From Rheinheimera sp. 4Y26 (GTDB taxonomy: Bacteria > Pseudomonadota > Gammaproteobacteria > Enterobacterales > Alteromonadaceae): a stretch of 64,000 nt of DNA. The stretch lies in contig NZ_JAOBWS010000007.1 in NCBI RefSeq assembly GCF_025245835.1, positions 62,001 to 126,000 on the forward strand, written 5' to 3'. This document shows positions 57,243 to 64,000 of the stretch, in pieces; position 1 is the first letter of the stretch; each line of letters starts with the position of its first letter. The translations under genes and the position numbers were made by a program. A model generated the notes under the pieces. The model was not told the origin of the DNA. It saw nothing but the letters and a program-made list of their open reading frames with translations, and searched no databases.

Positions 57243-57297
57243 TAAACCATCACTCTCATTATTCAATCGTTATCAGGTCAAAAGATGTACTGACAAA

Positions 57298-57319
57298 AAA
57301 ACCGCCAAACGGCGGTTTT
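57298..57319 (-). terminator. Terminator after the hvf operon and 39-residue ORF
   Basis: A 9-bp stem (57298-57306 with 57311-57319), loop AAAC, followed on the minus strand by a T run. It isolates the small ORF from apt. Confidence 0.88.
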
Positions 57320-57336: not shown

Positions 57337-57456
57337 TTAACCGAGAATTTGCAGCCAGCGTAAAATGGGAACTAGGCACAGCAGGCCCACAAACACTGCG
57401 ATAAAACCTAAAAATTGAGCCACACCAAAAGACTCTTTAAAATTCTCGTCTGCCAT
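57337..57456 (-). CDS. 39-residue single-pass membrane protein, unrecognised
   Basis: A short ORF below usual length cut-offs. It encodes 39 residues: a charged start (MADENFKES), a Gly-Val hydrophobic helix (about residues 12-32) and a short tail ending RWLQILG. ATG 57456 has a moderate GTGGGA site upstream. It is 53 bp after hvfC and directly before a strong terminator, so it may be the last gene of the hvf operon. The family is unknown to me, and the membrane role is inferred from hydrophobicity only. Confidence 0.6.
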   Translation of the reverse strand: MADENFKESFGVAQFLGFIAVFVGLLCLVPILRWLQILG

Positions 57457-57509: not shown

Positions 57510-58283
57510 TTAGTCCGCTTGGAAAGCTCGGATCACGCCTTTTCGTGCAAATTTGCCGAATAATTCAGCGGTGCCAACCTGCAATGCTGCAGGTTCTGCA
57601 GCAGGCAATAACTGCTGCAGTTTTGTCAGTACCGCATTAAGTGACAACCCGGGTTCAGTGGCCAGAATTTGCAAAGCTGTGGCGCTGAGTTCATTCAGGC
57701 TAACAAACTTAATTTCATCGGTGTCGTTTCGGTACATCAATAAATAATAAGGTCCGTCGGCAACAGTGGGCTGAAAATCCGGGCTGATTTGCATCACCGG
57801 ATACTGATAACACAGCACCAATGCCAATGCCGATAACTGAAGTGGCAGCTCTGGCATGACCGTTGTTAACGAGGGTGTTGTATCTTCGATGGTACTGGTC
57901 GCCAGATAAAGCTCCAGCCATTCATAATGGGCGAGCTCAATAGCAAATACCGGATCCTCAGAACTCAGCGGCGTACTGCTGAACCACTGAAAAAAGCCTG
58001 CGGCAATATCCAGAAAATAAGGGCTGGAAAGCGAGCTTTGCGCAAAAAACTGTCTTAACTTTTGCTGCCACAAAGACGACGGATAAAGCGACTTTAACAC
58101 CGGAAAAGCACTGTTAACAAAATTCTGCACATTATTAAAAAACAGCTGCTGGTATACCGCCATACGTTCAACGCTGATATCGTCAGGCGCAGAATTGGCC
58201 GGGTCGCGGATTGCGGCGGCAAACTGCTGTTGCACGGCCTGAAAATCAAGGCTGCTTTTTGTCATCAACCTGCCTTTGCTCAT
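57510..58283 (-). CDS. hvfC: DUF2063 protein, HvfC/BufC-like MNIO partner
   Basis: A 257-residue protein of the DUF2063 family. These proteins bind the MNIO enzyme and its peptide substrate as a recognition subunit. The DUF2063 region (about residues 5-105) has DISVERMAVYQQLFFNNV and NSAFPVLKSLYP, and ELAHYEWLELYL follows. ATG 58283 overlaps the hvfB stop in ATGA form, so translation is coupled; 58265 is an alternative start. It directly follows hvfB, which confirms the role by context. Confidence 0.9.
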   Translation of the reverse strand: MSKGRLMTKSSLDFQAVQQQFAAAIRDPANSAPDDISVERMAVYQQLFFNNVQNFVNSAFPVLKSLYPSSLWQQKLRQFFAQSSLSSPYFLDIAAGFFQWFSSTPLSSEDPVFAIELAHYEWLELYLATSTIEDTTPSLTTVMPELPLQLSALALVLCYQYPVMQISPDFQPTVADGPYYLLMYRNDTDEIKFVSLNELSATALQILATEPGLSLNAVLTKLQQLLPAAEPAALQVGTAELFGKFARKGVIRAFQAD

Positions 58284-59098
58284 TGCCCTGCCCTTTGCTG
58301 GCACGCTTTAATTTGCCAAAGCTCCGCTTCTAACTCCGGCATGGGTGGCAGATTAAAATCACGTTCCAGCACAGTGGCAAAGACCCCATGGCAGTCATAC
58401 GCATGCTGCAGCAATTGCCAGACCGGATCACAAACCGCACTGCCGTGGGTATCTATTAATAAAGATTCATGCTCTGTGTAATGGCCGGCAATATGGCCAT
58501 AAACAATACGTTCAGAGGGCAAAGCCGCAATAAATTCACGGGCGTTATAGCCATGATTGACGCTGTTCACATACACATTGTTAACGTCCAGCAATAAAGC
58601 ACAATCGGCTTGCTGCAGCACTTCCAGCGTAAAATCCAGCTCAGACATTTCCTGGCCCGGCGCCGCATAATAAGACACGTTCTCCACCACCAGCTGCTGA
58701 CCCAAAATATCCTGCACCTGCATAATACGCTCAGCTGTATATCGGGCTGCGGCTAAGGTAAAAGGAATAGGCATTAAGTCGTACAGATGACCACCAGCAG
58801 AACAATAACTTAAATGTTCGCTGTAGAGCTTGATTTGGTGTTGCTGCAGAAATTGTTTGACCGCTTTGACAAAATCCAGATCCAGCGGATCCGGGCTGCC
58901 AAGCGATAAACTTAAACCATGACAGGCAAAAGCATATCTTTCGGTCAGGGCGCGAAACTGCTTTCCCAGCGCCCCGCCAAAAGGTAACCAGTTCTCTGGT
59001 GCTACTTCAAAAAAATCAATCACTGCAGATTTTTCCTGACTGACAGACGCCAGCATTTCGCGCCGTAAGCCAAGGCCAACACCAGACAACAGCGTCAT
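58280..59098 (-). CDS. hvfB: DUF692 multinuclear non-haem iron oxidase (MNIO), HvfB/BufB-like
   Basis: A 272-residue TIM-barrel enzyme of the DUF692/MNIO family. These enzymes use several iron ions to oxidise cysteines in peptides, forming oxazolone/thioamide or thiooxazole groups. Visible conserved motifs are VAPENW, HGLSLSLGSPDPLD, YSEHLSYC, VENVSYY, LLLDVNNVYVNSVNHGY, HIAGHYTEH and DTHGSAVCDPVW. They supply the His, Asp and Glu metal ligands. It starts one base after the hvfA stop and overlaps hvfC. Confidence 0.93.
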   Translation of the reverse strand: MTLLSGVGLGLRREMLASVSQEKSAVIDFFEVAPENWLPFGGALGKQFRALTERYAFACHGLSLSLGSPDPLDLDFVKAVKQFLQQHQIKLYSEHLSYCSAGGHLYDLMPIPFTLAAARYTAERIMQVQDILGQQLVVENVSYYAAPGQEMSELDFTLEVLQQADCALLLDVNNVYVNSVNHGYNAREFIAALPSERIVYGHIAGHYTEHESLLIDTHGSAVCDPVWQLLQHAYDCHGVFATVLERDFNLPPMPELEAELWQIKACQQRAGQ

Positions 59099-59099
59099 G

Positions 59100-59468
59100 T
59101 TAGTTCATACCACCACATTTGCCCTCGCCACACTTACCTTCGCCACATTTACCTTCCTTGGTTTTGTCGGTGGCTTTATCGGCTGCTTTGTCGGCCATTT
59201 TTTCAGCGCCGCACTTTCCTTCACCACATTTGCCTTCACCACATTTGCCTTCTTTGGCTTTGTCCGCTTTGTCGGCGCCACACTTGGCTTCTTTGCTTTT
59301 ACCGTCGGTTTTTACTTTGTCAGCACCGCAGGACGCTTCAGCGGCCGACAACTGATAACCTGCTGCCAATTCAGTCGCCTGAAAGGTACCGGCGCTGGCT
59401 GTGCTGCTGATAGAGCCCAAAACCAGAACACCTACCGCAGAAACAACTTTTTTATGAAGCATGCTCAT
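59100..59468 (-). CDS. hvfA: HvfA-like exported precursor peptide with EGKCG repeats
   Basis: A 122-residue small secreted protein, the likely RiPP precursor. A signal peptide (HKKVVSAVGVLVLGSIS, cleavage about after Ala26) is followed by a 96-residue mature chain rich in Lys, Gly, Ala and Glu with eight cysteines. Six lie in EGKCG units, arranged as two triplets separated by a charged 17-residue spacer. EGKCG is the motif modified by HvfB-type enzymes. ATG 59468 has AAGGA 8 bp ahead; an in-frame opening to 59615 is not translated. First gene of the hvfABC operon. Confidence 0.88.
   Translation of the reverse strand: MSMLHKKVVSAVGVLVLGSISSTASAGTFQATELAAGYQLSAAEASCGADKVKTDGKSKEAKCGADKADKAKEGKCGEGKCGEGKCGAEKMADKAADKATDKTKEGKCGEGKCGEGKCGGMN
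59112..59252 (-). repeat. Two triplets of 15-bp EGKCG repeats
   Basis: Codons for EGKCG occur at 59238-59252, 59223-59237 and 59208-59222 (first triplet) and at 59142-59156, 59127-59141 and 59112-59126 (second triplet). The intervening region 59157-59207 encodes a charged spacer. Confidence 0.95.
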
Positions 59469-59741
59469 GTTGAAATTCCTTATGATCTGTCGATAAACCG
59501 TGATGATAAAACCCAATATCAATGCCAGACAAGCTGTCCGGCAATTACTCTGATAAAGACCCTGCAGTCTGTCGAAAAATTTCAGTGGCTGGCAATAATT
59601 CTTTGGCGCCGCCATCAGGGCACTACAGAATTAGCATAATAGTGATGCTTTTTCAGTAAGTTTTGATCTGCATCAGAGCAGCATTTTGCTGCACGCTGCA
59701 CAATCAGACCATTATTGCCCCCAATCCCATTGAGGTTTGTT

Positions 59742-60113
59742 ATGCCACAGTCTTTGACTCCAATGCTCAGAGCCCAGTTACTGGAAGAAATTCAGCAACA
59801 ACGTGCTGCTATTTATCAGTATCTGCAACAAGGACAACAAGCCGGATACAGCAACCTGCTACTGAAACTTGATAGTCACCCGCTGAGCCACTGGCCTGAA
59901 TTACTGAATCAGTGGCTCACGCCGGAACTGGAAGCAAAAACCCGGCGGCTGGAAGCAATTCAGGCGGCGCTGAGCCAAATGGATATGGGGCTTTATGGTT
60001 TGTGTTGTGACTGCGACAGCAGAATTGAACGGCATTTGTTACAACAGGATCCGGCACGCCAGCGCTGTGCGCACTGTGACAAACTATATTCAGCCGCTAA
60101 AAAGCAGGCCTGA
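59742..60113 (+). CDS. DksA/TraR-type C4 zinc finger protein
   Basis: A 123-residue protein related to DksA/TraR. The C-terminal zinc finger has Cys88, Cys91, Cys109 and Cys112 (with extra Cys89) in GLCCDCDSRI and RCAHCDKLY. The N-terminal part is a helical region. ATG 59742 is preferred to 59715 since GAGG is at 59732-59735. It is shorter than DksA (151), so it may be a TraR-like regulator of RNA polymerase. It is divergent from hvfA, so it may share its regulatory region, though no link is proved. Confidence 0.85.
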   Translation: MPQSLTPMLRAQLLEEIQQQRAAIYQYLQQGQQAGYSNLLLKLDSHPLSHWPELLNQWLTPELEAKTRRLEAIQAALSQMDMGLYGLCCDCDSRIERHLLQQDPARQRCAHCDKLYSAAKKQA

Positions 60114-60717: not shown

Positions 60718-61389
60718 TTAAGAACCGTAACGCTGAGTCCAACAGTTCACTGCAACAGTAATACGCCGATCTGTACCGAAAAAAGGCGCTACTTCATGCT
60801 GCAGGTAGGATGGAAACACGATCAATTGTCCGCCTTTTAATTTGAAGTTATGACTATAGGTATTATAAACACCTGAAAGATTTGCATTACCGCTGTCCAG
60901 ATAGGTATTACAGTGCGGCCTTGGATCATGAAATCTTAAAACCCCGCTATCAGGTTTACCTTCCACATCTTCACCAGGATTCACACAGTACACAGCTGAC
61001 CAGGACGCCATAGGGTGATTGTGGGTATAAAAATATCCGCCAAATTCGGTGATATGAAACCAGGCGTCACTAAACAGCTGAATTTTTTGCATTTGCTCAT
61101 GATCATAACCATTCAGTCGGGCAATAACCCATGCCACTGTCTGTAAGACAAAGAGTCTGAGTTGTTGTACTGCCGGGTCAGGGTAATGAAATAAATCAAA
61201 GTTACTCTCAAACAGATTATCCTGAACGTAGTTTTGCGGCCGTGGATTTTTGTGTTTAACGCCCTGCGATACCAACAGATCAAAATATTGTTCCAGCTTG
61301 ATATTTAGTTCTTCCGGATTTGGAAAATCAATCACAGCAAAAGGGGTGGCAAACATCGGAAAAACTGATGGCTCCAATGGTTTATTCAT
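60718..61389 (-). CDS. Putative 2OG-Fe(II) oxygenase (TIGR02466-like)
   Basis: A 223-residue protein resembling the family of putative 2-oxoglutarate and Fe(II)-dependent oxygenases. The cupin-type core has His123-Asn-His125 in FYTHNHPMASWS, a Leu-rich RFHDPRPHC strand, and a distal His198 in LQHEV with Arg209 for the 2OG carboxylate. No signal peptide. It follows a TonB-dependent receptor gene on the same strand with a terminator between. Substrate unknown; PKHD-type hydroxylases often accompany such receptors. Confidence 0.85.
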   Translation of the reverse strand: MNKPLEPSVFPMFATPFAVIDFPNPEELNIKLEQYFDLLVSQGVKHKNPRPQNYVQDNLFESNFDLFHYPDPAVQQLRLFVLQTVAWVIARLNGYDHEQMQKIQLFSDAWFHITEFGGYFYTHNHPMASWSAVYCVNPGEDVEGKPDSGVLRFHDPRPHCNTYLDSGNANLSGVYNTYSHNFKLKGGQLIVFPSYLQHEVAPFFGTDRRITVAVNCWTQRYGS

Positions 61390-61447
61390 AATAATTCAGC
61401 TCAAAAACGTCAGTTTAACGGAGACAATTTTATTAATAAAAACAAAT

Positions 61448-61473
61448 AAAAAGCCCCCGTGAGGGGGCTTTTT
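61448..61473 (-). terminator. TonB-dependent receptor terminator
   Basis: A perfect 11-bp GC-rich stem (61448-61458 with 61463-61473), loop GTGA, followed on the minus strand by a T tract. Confidence 0.93.
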
Positions 61474-61488
61474 TATTATCAGCTCAGA

Positions 61489-64000
61489 TTAGAACTTCAT
61501 AGTAGCTCTGAAGTAAACAAAGCGGTCCATGTTTACGTCGTATTCAGTTACAGAGAAGTTGTTGGTAGAGGCAGCATAGTTGTTATCAATACCTTCTGGA
61601 GTAGGCTCTTTGGCAAACAAGTTCTCAACACCAAAAGTTAACTTAGTATTGTAGTCACTTAAGTTATAACCCATTGAAATATCATGGATAACATAAGTTG
61701 GCAGACGCTCAGTTACGCCATCAGCCGCTGTGTCGCCATACACGTGGGTATAGAAACCTTTCATCGCGTGAACATAACGGGCTGTGTAGTGAGCATCCCA
61801 GTCACCTAACATCCAGTCAACACCGAAGCTGCCTTTCAAACGAGGATAACCTGCGTCACCCCACTGAACACCTACGTACTCTTCGTCACTGATTTCGCTG
61901 TCAGTCACGTATGAGAAGTCCAGGTAGGTCTTGAAAGTACCAAATGAGGTTTCTGGCAGACGGTATGCCATGTAGGTATCTACACCTTGTACGTGTAATG
62001 TACCTTGGTTCTGCAGACCGTTGCGTAAGTCTACAACGTTACCGTTTGAGTCACGGTCAACCAGGCCACAGAATTCTGAAGCTGGGCCACCGGTTGCACA
62101 ACCAGCAAGGATGATACCTGCACCGATACGTGAAATTGAATCTTCAACTTCAATGTCATACCAGTCCACTGTCAGCTCTGCGCCTTCCAACCAGCTTGGG
62201 TTGTATACAAAACCAACTGTTTGTGATGTTGAAGTTTCTGGCTTCAGATCTGGTGATGATTGTTGCGTCACACGGATCTGAGGGTTTGACTGACGGTAGC
62301 CTGCAGGCACACCAGCACAACCAGGAACCTTAGATAAATCTAAAGTGATTGGCGCACCAGCTGCAGTCAGAGTGTTACAAGGGTCAGTTAAACCAGTGTA
62401 AGAATCTGAGTTACCAGCGAATAAGTTAGACAGTGACGGAGCACGGTAACCTTCAGCCCAGGTAGAACGAACTAATAAATCTTCGATTGGGCGGAATTCA
62501 ACACCAACTTTTGCAGTGCTGTTGCTGCCGTAAGAGCTGTGGTCAGAGAAACGTACTGCCGGGCTGATTAACAGGTTCTCAAGAACCGGAATTGACACTT
62601 CAGCATAAGCTTCGTCCAGACGGAAACCACCAGCTGTTGCATCACGTTGGTTACCTGATGATTCACCAGTTACAGTCAGCGGATCCGGGTTGTCATAACC
62701 GTTCTCTTCACGGCGTTCAAAACCAACAGCTAAGCCCATAAAGCCAGATGGCAGTTCAAACAGTTCGCCTGAAGTGTTAAAGGCGTAATCTTTTAACTCG
62801 CTACCAGATGATGCAATGCTGTCAAAGGTGATGTAATCAAGCATCTCTGGCGTGATAGTGCCTGGGCCGCCAAACAAGTTTAATGGCACACAGTTCGTTG
62901 ACGCAGTACAGTTTGCACCTAAAGCAGCGTTGATACGGGTCAGGTTTAATAAACCTGTTGTTTTTTCATCTTGTGAGTTCTGGCCGTAGATGTAGTGAGC
63001 ATCCCAAGTCCATGATGAATCACCGAAGGCACCTTCTAAGCCGACCATACCGCGGTAGGTATTATCGTTTTGCACATAGCGGCGTGGGCCTGCTTCTACC
63101 ATACGGCGTTGCAGAGAGTAAGGTGTATAAGTAGTGTAACCAGCTGCTAAAGCGCGCGAAGCATGTCCGTACAATGTTTGTTTAAACGGGTTGTAAATAT
63201 TGTCGGCGTGAATATCAACACGGCTTGCTGCTGCACCGAAGGCGGCACCCAGAGTTACCGGCATTGGTGCTAATTCTTGCGCAGATTTACGGTTTGTCAT
63301 CACAAAGTCAGAAACCAGACGCAGGTCATCAGTCAGGTTGTAGTAACCCTGAACATAGAATGCGTTACGGTTTTGCGGCGTTACTAAGTAGTTATCAGGT
63401 GCATAGTTATAGTTGTCACCGTTACCAGCCTGACGCTGACGGAACTTATCCAGACCTGTTGCAGCGCCAGTGCCTTCTTTGGTCATTAAGTCATAACGAC
63501 CAGATGTGGCAGTAGTAGTTTTGTAACCATTGGCAATCAGAGCAGCCTGGTTAGCAGCGCTTAAAGTGTTAGCACTAACACCTAAACGGGTATTCATACC
63601 AGTAGAACTCCAACCTACAGATGATACTTCGCGATCACCAGCCCAGATTGGTTGTTGTGTAGTGTGGTTGGCGTTGAACAGGATACCGCCTTTGTCAGTG
63701 CTGGTACCCAGAGTCATTTCAGCTGTGTACTGACGGCCGTCACCTTCACTCATGTTTTCGCCAACATAAGAAGATAATTCAACACCTTCAAAATCTTTAC
63801 GTGTAATGATGTTCACTACACCGGCAATGGCATCAGAACCATATAATGCAGAAGCGCCGTCTTTTAATACTTCAACACGTTCAATTGCTGAAGTTGGAAT
63901 AGTGTTTAAGTCAACAGTTGAACCTAAAGATGAAACCCAACGTCTGCCGTTTACTAAAACCAACAGGCGCTGTGAACCTAAGTTACGCAGGTCCATGTTG
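61489..64000 (-). CDS. TonB-dependent outer-membrane receptor, 5' end beyond window
   Basis: The C-terminal part of a TonB-dependent receptor. At least 835 residues are visible; signal peptide, TonB box and plug start are beyond the window. The plug is represented by LVLVNGRRWV and IERVEVLKDGASALYGSDAI, and the barrel ends in aromatic Phe (VYFRATMKF) as expected for BAM recognition. Extracellular loop motifs include LFGGPGT and Cys-containing loops. The barrel strand LKPETSTSQTVGFVY is typical. The substrate is unknown; carbohydrate- or amino-acid-linked receptors of this type are common in Alteromonadales. The frame runs to the end of the window on the minus strand. Confidence 0.92.
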   Translation of the reverse strand, partial: NMDLRNLGSQRLLVLVNGRRWVSSLGSTVDLNTIPTSAIERVEVLKDGASALYGSDAIAGVVNIITRKDFEGVELSSYVGENMSEGDGRQYTAEMTLGTSTDKGGILFNANHTTQQPIWAGDREVSSVGWSSTGMNTRLGVSANTLSAANQAALIANGYKTTTATSGRYDLMTKEGTGAATGLDKFRQRQAGNGDNYNYAPDNYLVTPQNRNAFYVQGYYNLTDDLRLVSDFVMTNRKSAQELAPMPVTLGAAFGAAASRVDIHADNIYNPFKQTLYGHASRALAAGYTTYTPYSLQRRMVEAGPRRYVQNDNTYRGMVGLEGAFGDSSWTWDAHYIYGQNSQDEKTTGLLNLTRINAALGANCTASTNCVPLNLFGGPGTITPEMLDYITFDSIASSGSELKDYAFNTSGELFELPSGFMGLAVGFERREENGYDNPDPLTVTGESSGNQRDATAGGFRLDEAYAEVSIPVLENLLISPAVRFSDHSSYGSNSTAKVGVEFRPIEDLLVRSTWAEGYRAPSLSNLFAGNSDSYTGLTDPCNTLTAAGAPITLDLSKVPGCAGVPAGYRQSNPQIRVTQQSSPDLKPETSTSQTVGFVYNPSWLEGAELTVDWYDIEVEDSISRIGAGIILAGCATGGPASEFCGLVDRDSNGNVVDLRNGLQNQGTLHVQGVDTYMAYRLPETSFGTFKTYLDFSYVTDSEISDEEYVGVQWGDAGYPRLKGSFGVDWMLGDWDAHYTARYVHAMKGFYTHVYGDTAADGVTERLPTYVIHDISMGYNLSDYNTKLTFGVENLFAKEPTPEGIDNNYAASTNNFSVTEYDVNMDRFVYFRATMKF

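Follow-up and report, generated by a model that had tools for sequence, protein, structure and literature searches.

A captophorin-branch HvfABC operon in Rheinheimera and its predicted control by a DUF3379-linked ECF sigma factor

The operon class to which hvfABC belongs comprises more than 20,000 known loci (PMC13097082). The Haemophilus influenzae oxazolin (hvf), gonophorin, and fontiphorin operons encode an EGKCG precursor, an MNIO enzyme, and a DUF2063 partner, in that order. Characterized relatives make 5-thiooxazole copper peptides, and copper binding by EGKCG peptides has been reported among them (PMC13097082). In Neisseria (sigma-E/MseR) and Haemophilus (RpoE2/HrsE), one ECF sigma factor joins hvf-type genes, DoxX, and msrAB (PMC2893595, PMC7907618). 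The Caulobacter bufferins, which are also MNIO peptides with their operon under an ECF sigma factor, are under sigma-F/NrsF (PMC3511200, PMC12452194), and sigma and NrsF genes are reported for Buf1 (PMC12452194).

Here we describe an hvfABC operon in a 64-kb stretch of Rheinheimera sp. 4Y26 DNA (hereafter the window; C31:62001-126000). The three-gene operon is a real, ordinary member of this large known class and by itself adds little; the new element, which matters more, is its predicted regulation by an ECF sigma factor encoded next to a DUF3379 protein. We put at about four in five the probability of the account as a whole, that is to say, a captophorin operon whose precursor would be oxidized at its cysteines to a metal-chelating product and whose transcription would be switched on by the DUF3379-linked sigma factor.

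The hvfABC operon and its class

The genes hvfA, hvfB, and hvfC follow one another in that order on the minus strand, from 59468 down to 57510. A gap of 1 nt separates hvfA from hvfB, and hvfB and hvfC overlap by ATGA; these ORF coordinates bear out the order, strand, and junctions given in an earlier note on this DNA. The features of the locus are as follows.

59100..59468, minus strand: hvfA, exported Cys-rich precursor, 122 aa (NF050137)
58280..59098, minus strand: hvfB, MNIO (DUF692) maturase, 272 aa (PF05114, NF003818, PDB 3BWW)
57510..58283, minus strand: hvfC, DUF2063 / NGO1945-type partner, 257 aa (PF09836, PF22106, NF050145, PDB 3DEE)
59557..59583, minus strand: predicted ECF-type promoter of hvfA, GAAA-N18-GGTCT; 88 nt between the end of the -10 element and the ATG
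57337..57456, minus strand: 39-aa single-TM ORF 3' of hvfC, same direction; conserved, not hvf-specific
57293..57319, minus strand: terminator-like hairpin and T run after the 39-aa ORF; fold z-score -3.14

HvfA has a Sec-like signal (approximately residues 1–26, with AxA ahead of residue 27, judged by eye) and the leader motif FQATELAAGY. Its 8 cysteines are residues 47, 63, 76, 81, 86, 108, 113, and 118, and its repeats comprise six EGKCG motifs in two triplets (about 59208–59252 and 59112–59156), plus EAKCG and ASCG. The exported EGKCG-repeat precursor of the earlier note is thus confirmed, with the signal read by eye. The leader pattern F-x4-[LM]-x2-[GA]-Y is present in all 74 precursors found among the best 80 of 345 named loci. 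HvfA scored above the NCBIfam family-domain model NF050137 (53 bits, cut-off 19.5) and below the narrower equivalog NF050188 (28.8 bits, cut-off 95); because the latter cut-off was not reached, the profile scores make it a member of the family, and we do not call it an HvfA equivalog.

HvfB matched PF05114 of Pfam (344.4 bits, cut-off 25) and the NCBIfam equivalog NF003818 (428 bits, cut-off 360), and its nearest solved structure is PDB 3BWW (E 1.4e-64). HvfC matched PF09836 (73.9 bits, cut-off 27.2) and PF22106 (77.2 bits, cut-off 27) of Pfam and the NCBIfam equivalog NF050145 (245.5 bits, cut-off 142), with PDB 3DEE as the nearest solved structure (E 1.1e-12). The profile search that the earlier note had proposed therefore places DUF692 (PF05114), DUF2063 (PF09836), and the HvfA family (NF050137) all above cut-off.

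The earlier note had labeled the locus "bufferin/HvfA". The HvfA/EGKCG half of this label stands and the Buf1/Buf2 half does not: HvfB reached 261 bits against the NCBIfam BufB model, below the cut-off of 310, and the Pfam and NCBIfam profile search of the precursor gave no match to the DUF2282 and BufA2 models. We rejected the Buf1 and Buf2 bufferin types on these two results, and by its profile matches the operon belongs to the HvfA/oxazolin (captophorin) branch. Lys-Cys MNIO enzymes are marked by two adjacent Arg residues and an Asp-Phe pair (PMC13097082). HvfB contains the motifs GLRRE, DTHG, and ERDF, of which GLRRE and ERDF fit these Arg-Arg and Asp-Phe features. By analogy with the described relatives, the product of HvfA is likely a 5-thiooxazole copper peptide. 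An HvfA that acts unmodified, like a metallothionein, beside relic enzymes is very improbable: HvfB and HvfC are intact and above their equivalog cut-offs, and the HvfB motifs are kept. In the modification route that we favor, HvfA would be made with its Sec signal and conserved leader motif, HvfB and its partner HvfC would oxidize the KCG cysteines before export, most likely to 5-thiooxazoles, and the periplasmic product would then chelate copper(I) or a similar soft metal.

The enzyme was matched in 34 of the 40 genomes searched as relatives (own genome included) and in all 22 genomes of the genus. The enzyme gene has a precursor gene next to it at 23 of 24 loci, and the remaining locus (L027) shows one in a larger stretch (L053). 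The genome of strain 4Y26 has one MNIO gene and one HvfA locus, which are adjacent. Of the best 80 among 345 named loci, 79 show hvfC, 74 a precursor, and 56 a flanking apt gene; DoxX was counted in 3, an underestimate, as DoxX-like genes are visible in more of these loci. Curated models, the structures 3BWW and 3DEE, and conservation in the genus together support the HvfABC-like MNIO RiPP identity first proposed from the letters of the sequence.

The fourth gene and the flanks

The locus differs from the oxazolin, gonophorin, and fontiphorin operons in that the precursor falls below the narrow HvfA equivalog and no DoxX/HvfX gene adjoins. A DoxX family search of the own genome found no DoxX inside the window or beside hvfABC. 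Both own-genome matches, C22:159084 (65.6 bits) and C31:18148 (22.1 bits), are below the HvfX cut-off of 80 and outside the window, in agreement with the earlier statement that the DoxX-type fourth protein is absent. A DoxX/HvfX gene is usual beside such operons without being required, "various combinations" having been described (PMC12452194). A DoxX gene heads the ECF sigma operon described below in 12 of the 22 genus genomes. As HvfX, this sigma-operon DoxX scored 208.6 bits in the one genus member tested and 231.9 bits in Arsukibacterium; in G013 it starts approximately 6 kb beyond hvfC.

Five genus genomes contain a second hvf locus (L057–L061) with DoxX and two-component genes nearby. 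The two second-locus precursors tested match EF-hand models, and the one DoxX tested beside such a locus scored 139.2 bits as HvfX.

The 39-aa membrane ORF after hvfC (57337–57456, minus strand), which has no Pfam family above cut-off and no NCBIfam match, might stand in for DoxX/HvfX as the fourth protein. It is present in all 22 genus hvf loci read, mostly with third-position changes between close relatives. Against this substitute role, which we rejected as highly improbable, 12 of 28 family loci examined lie by apt with no hvf gene in the 1.5-kb flanks, and 6 of the 28 have neither apt nor hvf. Because the ORF is conserved but not hvf-specific, its distribution makes it a neighbor rather than a member of the operon. 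The family occurs in 45 of 247 genomes of the order and, judged from these matches, is a widespread unnamed microprotein. It adjoins dnaX-apt(-ybaN), and in another group it lies between pepD-like and carA-like genes.

On the other side of hvfA, a divergent gene (59742–60113, plus strand) encodes a short DksA/TraR-like protein below the DksA model cut-offs; this divergent arrangement recurs in many related loci. An FNR-like box (59663–59676, TTGATCTGCATCAG, 1 mismatch) lies approximately 65 nt before the dksA-like gene and farther from hvfA; such boxes match 7 times in the window versus 3.15 expected. Beyond the dksA-like gene, a 2OG-Fe(II) oxygenase-like gene and a TonB-dependent receptor gene (60718–63999, minus strand) show no visible hvf link. 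An Rfam scan returned four tRNAs and nothing else.

The hvfA promoter and the DUF3379-linked sigma factor

One conserved block stands out upstream of hvfA. It has the form GAAA-N18/19-GGTCT in 23 of 23 hvfA regions (shuffle mean 0.06, maximum 2), which are related sequences and not independent rows. In the window, GAAATTT-N15/17-GGTCT occurs once, at 59583–59557, with 0.03 expected. The longer form GAAATTT-N15-GGTCTA has 13 matches in the genus genomes, one in each of 13 of the 22 and all at hvfA by coordinates; the reversed control has 17, so the number is not enriched and only the position is telling. Among the best 80 of 345 named loci, the strict form GAAA-N18-GGTCT is present at 58 with a spacing of 18 and at no more than 4 with any other spacing from 10 to 26. 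It is absent from the other 22, which include Alishewanella, Methylococcales/Methylococcaceae, Bermanella, and three Shewanella loci. With one mismatch allowed, four genomes yielded a total of 20 matches, of which four are at hvfA. Two other conserved one-mismatch sites were set aside, being antisense within a gene taken by eye for trmD.

A dedicated copper sensor (such as CueR or CusR) could instead switch on hvfABC, with the ECF-like sequence incidental; the copper bound by EGKCG peptides of relatives (PMC13097082) would suit such a sensor. We consider this unlikely, since the conserved part of the hvfA upstream region is the ECF-like block itself, and a scan for a CueR-like dyad with as many as 2 mismatches found none in the region separating hvfA from the divergent gene.

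A candidate for the factor that reads the ECF-like block comes from Arsukibacterium, where a PRK12517-type ECF sigma gene lies on the far side of hvfABC and of DoxX or Trx/DsbD-like genes. In the loci that extend far enough, a DUF3379 gene comes after this sigma gene. We disregarded a motif-like sequence within the first codons of the Arsukibacterium sigma gene, since it may be coding. The own-genome counterpart lies at C3:108663-109184 (NF009170, 253.3 bits, cut-off 197); the gene directly after it is DUF3379 (226.8 bits), and GAAC-N18-GGTCT ends 32 nt ahead of the start of the sigma gene. Unlike in the Neisseria and Haemophilus regulons, hvf and sigma are thus at separate loci in this genome. 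A DUF3379-linked sigma is present in all 22 genus genomes, and in each of them its operon is preceded by G[AC]A[AC]-N18-[GT]GTCT, which stands directly before sigma in 10 and before doxX-sigma in 12. Scanned over spacings of 10 to 26, this site gave 22 matches at a spacing of 18 and at most 1 elsewhere. Markov controls for the sigma and named-hvf scans had means of 0.17 and 0.18 and a maximum of 2. Among 19 own-genome loci with a sigma region-4 match, the DUF3379-linked sigma is the only one with the site immediately ahead of its start, and two others have it in another place.

The widened and class patterns were set after the sigma-operon sequences had been inspected. The class pattern occurs four times in the 64-kb window on both strands, hvfA included, so that a chance match within any one 100-nt upstream region is uncommon but can occur. 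GAAMWTT-N15-GGTCT, widened after the own sigma site had been seen, has exactly two matches each in G000, G018, and G012, at hvfA and sigma. In G005, G013, and G021 it has 2, 1, and 3 matches, of which one in each is at hvfA and the three others are not at sigma; the reversed control gave higher counts (8, 6, 6, 3, 5, and 5). The two extra G021 matches were discarded as lying within reading frames.

The GTCT of the -10 element and the A-rich -35 element also look like sigma-E promoters, and the own genome encodes RpoE (NCBIfam RpoE, 320.8 bits), so classical sigma-E might read the hvfA promoter in place of the DUF3379-linked sigma. Shewanella sigma-E promoters, however, have GAACTT approximately 15 nt before GTC (PMC4336711), whereas at hvfA the element is GAAATT and the interval 17. 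A Shewanella-like sigma-E site belongs to the own rpoE gene, and no class site lies ahead of the start at the rpoE locus. Reading by sigma-E is accordingly unlikely in our view. We favor the DUF3379-linked sigma: hvfA would be transcribed from GAAA-N18-GGTCT by the product of C3:108663-109184, and the DUF3379 membrane protein, whose gene comes next, would hold this sigma factor in check.

The described systems differ from this arrangement in promoter and anti-sigma factor. The Neisseria -10 element CGTCTAAH resembles the GGTCTA found here, whereas its -35 element is GTMAGBWTT with a 12–13 nt spacer (PMC2893595), as against GAAA-N18-GGTCT. In Caulobacter, the promoter (GTAACC-N16-CGAA), the precursor type, and the anti-sigma factor all differ (PMC3511200). 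Neisseria and Haemophilus have a small zinc-type anti-sigma factor, by contrast with the DUF3379 candidate here; a search for the zinc-type anti-sigma motif at the 19 own-genome sigma loci found one ChrR-like pair and one short doubtful frame.

DUF3379 consists of an N-terminal part, one hydrophobic stretch from approximately residue 81, and a C-terminal part in which H114, H117, E118, C158, and H167 are invariant in 22 sequences (19 Rheinheimera and 3 Arsukibacterium; L234, L236, and L239 are not included). From this layout, we infer that DUF3379 may be a membrane anti-sigma factor that senses metals or redox state in the periplasm. The predicted model is poor (mean pLDDT 50.1), and a fold search with it gave nothing at E 0.001 or below. 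A literature search, to which subscription papers were mostly closed, found no paper on DUF3379 and none joining thiooxazole with a sigma factor and promoter; the words Rheinheimera and promoter do not occur in the part of PMC12452194 available.

A candidate regulon with methionine-sulfoxide repair

The same promoter class may extend to other genes. Six msrB genes were found in four genomes, two of them fused as MsrA-Trx-MsrB and four single-domain. A class site precedes the fused Trx-MsrAB gene by 41 nt in the own genome (G000) and by 60 nt in G005; the four single-domain genes have no class site. With the narrow motif, the six msrB loci have no site able to drive them. In another genus of the family (G022), GAAA-N18-GGTCT lies 41 nt before the first gene of a DUF2282 operon (L064 6781) and 45 nt before the first gene of a BufA2-like operon (L063 3852), whose precursor scored 140.9 bits as BufA2 (cut-off 60). 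The second, EF-hand-type hvf loci L057, L058, L060, and L061 have no class site.

The G005 match that is not at hvfA, a class site at L240 1527-1501 (minus strand), lies 187 nt before a PCuAC copper-chaperone gene. We do not claim this site, which lies, by eye, inside a small PspC-type frame and is probably a chance match.

The presence of one promoter class before the sigma operon and the gene for the periplasmic Trx-MsrAB suggests that the peptide probably takes part in an envelope stress response to oxidants, metals, or both. In Haemophilus, hypochlorite induces hvf-type genes via RpoE2 (PMC7907618). Meningococcal sigma-E does not respond to peroxide, diamide, or singlet oxygen (PMC2893595), and Caulobacter sigma-F genes respond to metals and not to reactive oxygen (PMC3511200); these responses argue against oxidants as the simple explanation. 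As a second candidate role, beside metal stress, we put forward an ECF sigma regulon that hvfABC would share with methionine-sulfoxide repair.

Judged from the promoter sequences, we lean toward a broader proposal, held with less confidence than the account of the operon itself. In Rheinheimera, Arsukibacterium, and their relatives, DUF3379 membrane anti-sigma factors, sensing copper or oxidants through periplasmic His/Cys residues, and their ECF sigma factor would run a regulon of HvfA-type operons and, in another genus, Buf1-/BufA2-type operons, together with HvfX, Trx-MsrAB, and themselves, as a separately wired counterpart of the known msr-hvf regulons. If this is true, the same peptide operon is linked with methionine-sulfoxide repair through different anti-sigma factors in Neisseria, Haemophilus, and the relatives of Rheinheimera. 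Such peptides would then belong to the envelope response to oxidants and copper, and a function would be suggested for DUF3379.
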